Shown here: positions 26,325 to 27,998 of the stretch, piece by piece
How the letters are laid out: the number at the start of each line of letters is the position of its first letter
Position numbering within the stretch: position 1 is the first letter of the stretch
Assembly (NCBI RefSeq): GCF_001894945.1
Contig: NZ_BCXE01000035.1
Span: 62,001 to 126,000, forward strand
DNA from: Rhodococcus ruber NBRC 15591
GTDB taxonomy: Bacteria; Actinomycetota; Actinomycetes; Mycobacteriales; Mycobacteriaceae
DNA: 64,000 nt
Reading direction: 5' to 3'
Made by a program: the position numbers and the translations under genes
Notes under the pieces: generated by a model
What the model was told of the DNA's origin: nothing
The model's database searches: none
Seen by the model: only the letters and a program-made list of their open reading frames with translations

Positions 26325-27317
26325 GTGCTCGACCTGCCCGCGATCCGGCGGCGAGGCGCGACGGTCGCGGCGGCCCTGCTCGCCGCGGCGTCCCTGCTGA
26401 CGGCACCGGCGGCCGCCGAGCCGGCTCCGGCCGGGGCCTACGTCGATCACGTGGAGGAGCGAACCGCGCGCGACTGGGTGTTGCACGTGTACTCACCGTC
26501 CATGGACCGGGTGATCCCGGTCGAGGTGATCCGGCCCGCCGACACTTCCGCTGCCCGGCCGACCTTCTACCTGCTCAATGGAGCGGGTGGGGGCGAGGAC
26601 GCCGCGAACTGGCGGGAGCAGACGGACGTCCGCGAGTTCTTCGACGGCAAGAACGTCAACGTCGTCACCCCGGTGGGCGGGGCCTTCTCGTACTACACGG
26701 ACTGGGTCCGTGACGACCCGAAGCTCGGCCGGCACCGGTGGGCGACGTTCCTGACGTCGGAACTGCCGCCGGTCGTGGACGCGGCACTGGGCGCCGACGG
26801 TCGCAACGCCGTGGCGGGGATGTCGATGTCGGGCAGTTCGGTGCTGGCCCTCGCGCAGCAGTCGCCGGGACTGTACGAGGCGGTGGCGTCCTACAGCGGG
26901 TGCGCGCAGACGAGCAGCGATCCTGGGCGCAGCTACGTCGAAGCCGTCGTCACGATCGGGGGCGGCGAGGTCGAGAACATGTGGGGCCCGATCGGAGGGC
27001 CGGGGTGGATCGCCAACGACGCGGCGCTGAACGCGGAGAAGTTGCGCGGGACGACGCTGTACATCTCCTCCGGCGGTGGCCTGCCGGGTCCGCACGAGGC
27101 GGCCCTGGGCGGGCAGGTGGATCCGGTCGACCTACTCGTCCTCGGATCCATCGAGGCGGCTACGGCACAGTGCACCGAGCGGCTGCGACGGACCTTCGAC
27201 GAACTCGGGATCGAGGCGACCTTCAGCACAGCGGCAGAGGGCACGCACTCGTGGGGATACTGGCAGGATGCGCTGCACGAGTCCTGGCCGATTCTCGCCG
27301 AGGCGATCGGCGCGTAG
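26325..27317 (+). CDS. Mycolyltransferase (antigen 85 / Cmt family)
   Basis: 330 residues. GTG 26325 has GAGGGAGG 4 nt upstream and gives a signal peptide (IRRRGATVAAALLAAASLL, cleavage near AAAEP). Landmarks: FYLLNGAGGGED, nucleophile elbow AGMSMSGSS, YSGCAQT, and GTHSWGYWQDAL with the catalytic His. It should esterify trehalose or the cell wall with mycolates. It parallels the partial gene at the window start, so the ribosomal block is flanked by two paralogs. A TATGTT -10-like box lies at 26261. Which acceptor each paralog uses is not visible. Confidence 0.9.
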   Translation: MLDLPAIRRRGATVAAALLAAASLLTAPAAAEPAPAGAYVDHVEERTARDWVLHVYSPSMDRVIPVEVIRPADTSAARPTFYLLNGAGGGEDAANWREQTDVREFFDGKNVNVVTPVGGAFSYYTDWVRDDPKLGRHRWATFLTSELPPVVDAALGADGRNAVAGMSMSGSSVLALAQQSPGLYEAVASYSGCAQTSSDPGRSYVEAVVTIGGGEVENMWGPIGGPGWIANDAALNAEKLRGTTLYISSGGGLPGPHEAALGGQVDPVDLLVLGSIEAATAQCTERLRRTFDELGIEATFSTAAEGTHSWGYWQDALHESWPILAEAIGA

Positions 27318-27346: not shown

Positions 27347-27376
27347 AAGGGGCGAGGTCGGGTGACCTCGCCCCTT
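27347..27376. terminator. Terminator after mycolyltransferase
   Basis: A 13-bp perfect stem (27347-27359 with 27364-27376) and a 4-nt loop, 29 nt after the stop codon. It also lies 24 nt downstream of the small reverse-strand ORF and may serve both. Confidence 0.8.
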
Positions 27377-27400: not shown

Positions 27401-27466
27401 TCAGATCAGCCAGCTGAGGAAGGAGAGCACGTGGTCGACCAGGGAGCCGAGCGAGCCGAGCAGCAT
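27401..27466 (-). CDS. Candidate 21-residue amphipathic peptide
   Basis: The ORF starts MLLGSLGSLV and ends FLSWLI. GGAGG lies exactly 8 nt before the ATG, near the best possible spacing, and every sense codon ends in G or C, as in real genes here. Polar residues (Gly4, Ser5, Ser8, Asp11, His12, Ser15, Ser18) fall on one helical face; Leu, Val, Phe, Trp and Ile on the other, so it should form an amphipathic membrane-active helix without a cleavable signal. Mycolate-containing corynebacteria make very small cell-wall porin peptides (PorA/PorH), and the neighbour is a mycolyltransferase, but no sequence relation is claimed. It could also be a leader peptide or toxin. Confidence 0.55.
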   Translation of the reverse strand: MLLGSLGSLVDHVLSFLSWLI

Positions 27467-27498
27467 GGGGATTACCTCCGATGTCGATGGACAAATCC

Positions 27499-27512
27499 TG
27501 GACGTACGTCCA
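27499..27512. promoter_or_regulatory. 14-bp palindrome TGGACGTACGTCCA upstream of small peptide ORF
   Basis: Perfect palindrome 33 bp upstream of the peptide ATG, between its Shine-Dalgarno and a probable upstream promoter. The form suits a TetR- or similar dimeric repressor; the protein is unknown. Confidence 0.5.
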
Positions 27513-27591: not shown

Positions 27592-27759
27592 TCAGTCCGC
27601 GATCATCCGGAGCAGCGCCGCGAGCGCGCGGAACGGCAGCGTCAGGACCCGCAGGAACAGGACGCCGAGCTCGGCGAGTGGCGCCACCGTCTCCGCGGCG
27701 TCGGCCGCCCTCTCCACTCGGTCCACGGCTCTGCGACCCCGTCGACGATGTCTGTCCAC
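27592..27759 (-). CDS. Candidate 55-residue small protein with hydrophobic C-terminus
   Basis: Reads GTG to TGA. The first ~11 residues are Arg-rich, then AVDRVERAADAAETVAPLAE, then a hydrophobic/basic helix (LGVLFLRVLTLPFRALAALL). A -10-like TACCGT stands 6 nt before the GTG, which would fit leaderless translation. Third positions are mixed in the first ten codons and strongly G/C after, so the real start may be the internal GTG at residue 12 (44 residues). No family recognised. It lies 125 bp upstream of the 21-residue peptide ORF on the same strand; the two could share a transcript. Confidence 0.4.
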   Translation of the reverse strand: MDRHRRRGRRAVDRVERAADAAETVAPLAELGVLFLRVLTLPFRALAALLRMIAD

Positions 27760-27931: not shown

Positions 27932-27997
27932 CGGCCGGGAGTTCACACCCCGGCGCGGCCGGGAGTTCACACCCCGGCGCGGCCGGGAGTTCACACC
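27932..27997. repeat. 24-bp tandem repeat, 2.75 copies
   Basis: Unit CGGCCGGGAGTTCACACC plus CCGGCG at 27932, 27956 and (partial) 27980. It begins 1 nt beyond the acyl-CoA dehydrogenase stop codon, so it is in that gene's 3' untranslated region. Confidence 0.85.
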
Positions 27998-27998
27998 G

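Follow-up and report, generated by a model that had tools for sequence, protein, structure and literature searches.

LGSL peptides, a multi-copy family of very short membrane-type peptides in Rhodococcus, with one member encoded beside a Cmt1-type mycolyltransferase

Judged by its sequence and those of its relatives, the peptide MLLGSLGSLVDHVLSFLSWLI, translated with its stop codon from positions 27401–27466 (minus strand) of the window (the whole 64,000-nucleotide stretch of Rhodococcus ruber NBRC 15591 DNA analysed here), is a member of a multi-copy family of very short membrane-type peptides, which we call LGSL peptides. It is predicted to be a leaderless membrane-type helix of 21 residues with a fixed pattern, conserved as a protein and encoded in what has the layout of a stand-alone transcription unit. 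What does a helix of this size do, and in which membrane? The explanation that we prefer, and hold tentatively, is that the helices self-associate and get as far as the mycomembrane, perhaps carrying a mycoloyl group on Ser5. The features of the locus are the following.

26325–27317, plus strand: mycolyltransferase of the Cmt1 type, convergent with the peptide gene; GTG start placed by alignment; Pfam Esterase; Cmt1 structures nearest.
27347–27376, no strand assigned: stem-loop with 13-bp arms and a 4-nt loop between the two convergent stops, from sequence and folding; probable shared terminator.
27401–27466, minus strand: LGSL peptide gene of 21 codons, from its translation, same-place counterparts and synonymous-biased change.
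27475–27479, minus strand: ribosome-binding site GGAGG, from the sequence, ending 8 nt 5' of the ATG.
27499–27512, minus strand: palindrome TGGACGTACGTCCA, from the sequence, ending 32 nt 5' of the ATG.

The 21-codon gene is almost certainly real. The GGAGG stands at the 8-nt spacing given in the initial annotation, and every one of the 21 sense codons has G or C in its third position, as that annotation also had it. Only two of the 188 ATG open reading frames of 15–40 residues in the whole window have GGAGG 4–10 nt upstream, this one among them, and GGAGG or a near form precedes most members of the family. What lifts the gene above chance is the presence of exact 21-residue peptides at this locus in 10 of 18 genomes, together with the synonymous-biased change seen across the family. 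The same-place survey took the region after truA from 17 further genomes of the genus, which makes 18 with the window. The mycolyltransferase is found at the locus in 14 of them, and in 10, the window included, an intact peptide of exactly 21 residues is encoded convergently with it, with start, stop and length kept in every one of these copies. Three genomes (G003, which is R. gordoniae, G005 and G015) carry peptide remnants lacking a usable start or the full length, G010 has the enzyme at the locus and no peptide was found there, and G002, G012, G014 and G016 have neither; in G014 and G016 further neighbours are also absent from the compared stretch. The nearest genome to that of the window in this set is R. 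aetherivorans (G001), whose enzyme is 96% identical. A wider search, at 58 loci that carry a relative of the enzyme, covered the 500 nt downstream (open reading frames of 15–45 residues with a Shine-Dalgarno sequence and at least half hydrophobic residues) and returned LGSL peptides at five, all in the window's genus and none in other genera.

Is it the peptide that is conserved, or an RNA in which a reading frame happens to lie? Thirteen within-locus pairs of family members, to which two genomes contribute at two loci, show 51 synonymous and 15 non-synonymous changes (pN/pS 0.14), and 49 of the 66 differences fall at codon position 3 (binomial P ~1e-13, uncorrected for the G/C bias of third positions). 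The window's locus alone gives 10 synonymous and five non-synonymous changes in four pairs. Its closest pair, the window's own genome (G000) and G001, differs once, non-synonymously; it is therefore the family, and not this pair, that supplies the codon evidence. At the deepest splits of the locus pN reaches or exceeds pS in several pairs (for example 0.47 and 0.29 for G000 and G004, R. phenolicus), which indicates that the charged branch to which the window peptide belongs has diverged far from the uncharged members. A chance reading frame in a non-coding RNA or terminator region, with the RNA conserved and not the peptide, would agree with the lack of synonymous change in the closest pair and with the excess of non-synonymous distance between the most distant ones. 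It is nevertheless very improbable, as length, start and stop are kept at the locus, the differences across the 13 pairs concentrate at third positions and unlinked copies keep the peptide although their leaders differ. The initial annotation had proposed a very short leaderless amphipathic peptide gene and held that a lack of conservation with synonymous-biased changes in relatives would count against it; relatives do have 21-residue counterparts, and the changes are biased in that way. Whichever reading of their function holds, these are genes below the usual gene-calling size under clear protein-level selection.

How far does the family extend? Profile searches over 401 and 321 genomes (the 27-residue profile was run on the 321) and a DNA pattern search over the 401 found 37 intact LGSL copies in 21 of the 401 genomes of the taxonomic family, at several loci and in some cases in tandem (634 nt apart in G006 and 247 nt apart in G091). 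The window's genus holds 25 of them in 13 of 18 genomes, genus g10 five in 5 of 14 genomes (one of which, G197, matches Prescottella defluvii CP121458.1) and genus g14 seven in 3 of 5. Copies are 21 (23 copies), 27 (10), 28 (two) or 32 (two) residues long, the longer Rhodococcus forms differing by 7 or 11 residues, two or three helical turns. A second copy in the window's own genome, MVLGSLAATLFTLLAGLGILL, lies at G000:C6:15081-15143. Most copies stand away from mycolyltransferase genes, and several are on plasmids. Genes for HxlR-type regulators were noticed near several unlinked copies (G000:C6:15081, with a Pfam HxlR match, and those of G008, G013 and G015, by eye).

The pattern of the peptide is tight. 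Leu3, Ser5 and Leu6 are present in all 37 copies and Gly4 in 34, no copy has a lysine or arginine, and six have aspartate or glutamate. Among the 23 copies with 21 residues, small or polar residues always occupy positions 4, 5, 7, 12 and 18, and hydrophobic ones positions 2, 3, 6, 10, 13, 14, 17, 20 and 21; mean hydrophobicity runs from 0.46 to 0.87 in 11 members. The window peptide has a calculated average mass of 2300.8, to which formylation would add about 28. Its helical moment, 0.35, exceeds the mean of its shuffles, 0.13 (P=0.001). The initial annotation described a clean helical-wheel split, and the seven polar residues that it named do all lie at least 100 degrees from the hydrophobic direction; Trp19 and Met1, however, are on the polar side as well, which makes the split good and not clean. 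Amphipathicity is strong in the window's branch; among the common uncharged members it is weak, five of them with 21 residues giving shuffle P values between 0.046 and 0.40.

Beyond the family the searches gave little. The 21-residue profile, taken order-wide, matched 5 of 397 genomes at E <=0.05, two of them in the window's genus; each of the three matches beyond the family falls in an open frame, of 493–1242 residues, and the two of these matches that were inspected are parts of long proteins. The DNA pattern ATGNTNCTNGGNTCNCTNG matches in 97 of the 401 genomes. Inspection covered 70 of about 130 listed places, so members may have been missed; the non-LGSL places among the 70 fall within other frames or at their starts, and nearly all of these frames are long. 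No family match was obtained in Pfam (the window peptide and four others), NCBIfam (the window peptide and seven others), PHROGs (four members) or PADLOC (four members). Against the PDB the 21-residue profile gave only 10-residue matches to viral proteins (E 0.13–0.66), which we take as chance, and the 27-residue profile gave no matches. No report of such peptides in Rhodococcus was found in a literature search. LGSL peptides thus appear to be a previously unlisted family, whose way of working would be of a known kind.

Further copies, left out of the count of 37, came from DNA searches of the plasmids in PLSDB: MLLGSLALTLGGLLAALGIVL is encoded on R. gordoniae pDND3A, on pGA1 of Rhodococcus sp. 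GA1, which is typed as conjugative, and on a plasmid of R. pyridinivorans SB3094. A copy without an ATG is present on pDF02 of Rhodococcus sp. p52 and a degenerate one on a Prescottella equi plasmid; the DNA search of plasmids with the window copy found none. No listed feature underlies the plasmid matches in the gene table consulted, which is incomplete. Protein searches of plasmids and phages gave no match, a weak negative because of the low-complexity filter, as the DNA searches did find plasmid copies. Directly after the SB3094 copy (L323, near 3001), its own 3' part is partially duplicated in tandem.

Placement of the window gene beside a mycolyltransferase, claimed from the start, holds, and the enzyme resembles Cmt1 of Corynebacterium glutamicum most closely: compared with solved structures it scores 263 bits with Cmt1 (8QHF/4H18), 153 with PS1 and at most 113 with antigen 85. 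Cmt1 differs from it by short insertions of 7 residues and fewer, which may or may not be the MytC-specific loop. Two other genes of the same genome are equally close to Cmt1 (252–256 bits, with seven of the eight mycolyltransferase matches compared), and a second Cmt1-like mycolyltransferase gene is found at positions 1–944 of the window, plus strand (G000:C35:61973-62944). Is the neighbourhood meaningful? An LGSL peptide is encoded somewhere in 13 of the 14 genomes with the enzyme at the locus and in none of the four without it (Fisher P=0.0016), and these four lie on three branches of a rough tree built from about 100 codons of truA. Other mycolyltransferases of the same kind are found in all 18 genomes, those four included, so the co-occurrence may be the mere loss of one region. 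Such regional loss explains much of it, because the sister genomes mostly carry only the local peptide copy.

The initial annotation gave the gene a palindrome and a terminator of its own. The palindrome is there, and the same or a near motif is found in 6 of the 10 intact members at the window's locus, with other hairpins in the remaining four, those of other species being different hairpins at a similar position. A leader RNA hairpin fits it at least as well as a DNA operator, and the genome shows no enrichment of the motif: with two mismatches at most, TGGACRTACGTCC occurs at 94+80 places and its reversed control at 101+99, and three other genomic places that were inspected are inside long open frames. 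A transcription-factor regulon is therefore rejected, though not a local site. Folding of the leader (z -1.37 in the window) and paired changes on both sides of the stem in leaders of one locus lead us, with moderate confidence, to regard the palindrome as a likely leader hairpin and possibly an operator. Leaders of the family have a mean z of -1.56, below -1 in 21 of 35 and above 0 in seven. For five of the seven leaders of that locus, both sides have changed with pairing kept at 7 of the 27 predicted pairs; for six leaders of another group this is true of none of 15. Downstream, the strong stem-loop exists (-42.9 kcal/mol, z -5.3 for the 75 nt 3' of the stop), but it is without a U-tract, and for this reason the terminator scan came back empty. 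The 75 nt after the stop fold with z < -1 in 34 of 35 family copies (mean z -4.8 against shuffles). No Rfam family overlaps the leader or the peptide at 20 loci; a match to Ms_IGR-7, an actinobacterial sRNA family, lies about 400 nt beyond the LGSL peptide in L145 (1984-2102, minus strand) and at 40.1 bits is below the gathering threshold of 45.

How might such a helix act? Helices would associate along the stripe of small and polar residues (positions 4, 7/8, 11/12, 15 and 18) and form small oligomers or channels. In the window's branch Gly4, Ser8, Asp11/His12, Ser15 and Ser18 replace the common Gly/Ala stripe, which, from the alignments, would give the oligomer a wetter interior. LGSL peptides would most likely act in the mycomembrane, possibly once Ser5 has been mycoloylated, as for PorA and PorH of Corynebacterium; the absence of positive charge, the invariant Ser5, usually beside a glycine, and the Cmt1-type neighbour at the commonest locus point there. 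PorA, PorH and ProtX of C. glutamicum are likewise very short α-helical proteins of a mycolate bacterium that lack signal sequences. Passages of PMC11066868 and PMC12632848 (and, for MytC, PMC5310785) describe the mycoloylation of PorA and PorH by Cmt1, the type of enzyme that neighbours the LGSL gene in the window, and passages of the same three papers place the modification mostly on Ser among Gly, Ala and Ser in proteins made without signal sequences. The window peptide has the short, signal-less α-helical pattern of these proteins, which is weaker in the uncharged members. PorA (45 residues) and PorH (57) form an operon pair, whereas LGSL peptides have 21–32 residues and their genes occur at several loci, singly or in tandem; the copy in the window has no operon partner, unlike the pair for the PorA/PorH hetero-oligomer, and tandem pairs from the same family occur elsewhere. 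PorARr and PorBRr, the R. ruber porins treated in the relevant passages of PMC9233653, are of the MspA family and have 213–267 residues and signal peptides; these are mycomembrane channels of the same or a near species, large where LGSL peptides are tiny leaderless helices. That the studied R. ruber porins are of this type counts against the mycomembrane reading, as do a length less than half that of PorA and PorH, the Cmt1 insertions that the window enzyme lacks, the many copies that are not beside mycolyltransferases, G010 with its enzyme and no peptide, and the weak amphipathicity of the uncharged members.

Could the target be the inner membrane instead? Type I toxins such as TisB, Ibs, Ldr, Fst and Hok are tiny hydrophobic peptides, multi-copy or plasmid-borne, made from structured stand-alone transcripts. 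If LGSL peptides were of this sort, the helix would insert in the inner membrane and slow or stop growth, leader structure or an antisense RNA would keep its translation low, and the copies would be stress or addiction modules on plasmids and chromosomes. We regard this as a possibility of some weight and nearly as likely as action in the mycomembrane, as it fits multi-copy, plasmid-borne, stand-alone genes about as well. Small hydrophobic peptides with a predicted stand-alone structured mRNA are common to both groups, and the many unlinked and tandem copies, the three intact plasmid copies and the decaying ones, the terminal hairpins, the leaders folded in more than half of the family and the one leader hairpin with paired changes are all what such modules would leave. 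TisB, Hok and Fst carry some positive charge, unlike LGSL peptides, which have none, and there is no PADLOC match in four members and no Rfam match to leader or peptide at 20 loci; no antisense RNA is known for LGSL genes, leader folding is absent in several members, and a mere pore or depolariser does not obviously need an invariant Ser5. The peptide might also be a small regulatory membrane protein, a helix that attaches to a single larger protein of the membrane or envelope and modulates it. An uncharged helix of 21 residues with a stripe of small residues does suit helix–helix packing, but one fixed partner goes poorly with the existence of several paralogues, whose neighbours differ, and with lengths that vary from 21 to 32 residues, and we think this unlikely.

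What would follow from action in the mycomembrane? In its boldest form, which is possible but doubtful, LGSL peptides would be the shortest mycomembrane channel formers known, of 21–32 residues, mycoloylated on Ser5 by Cmt1-type enzymes and encoded in several copies, chromosomal and plasmid-borne. Helical porins and the mycoloylation of peptides would then extend from Corynebacterium to Rhodococcus and Prescottella, and smaller multi-copy peptides beside a protein mycoloyltransferase would offer a minimal test substrate for the leaderless-peptide route to the mycomembrane. If they are toxins instead, they would form a large group resembling type I toxins, in a lineage for which the literature searched describes none that we found.

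Two minor observations concern the surroundings of the window gene. An open reading frame of 55 residues at 27592–27759 (minus strand) adjoins it, with 84% identity over 49 residues in R. aetherivorans; it resembles NCBIfam NF040918, 'LPFR motif small protein', only weakly (14.5 bits against a cutoff of 40). Three near-identical direct repeats (cggccgggagttcacacc), seen by eye, lie at 27933–27998, downstream of an acyl-CoA dehydrogenase gene.
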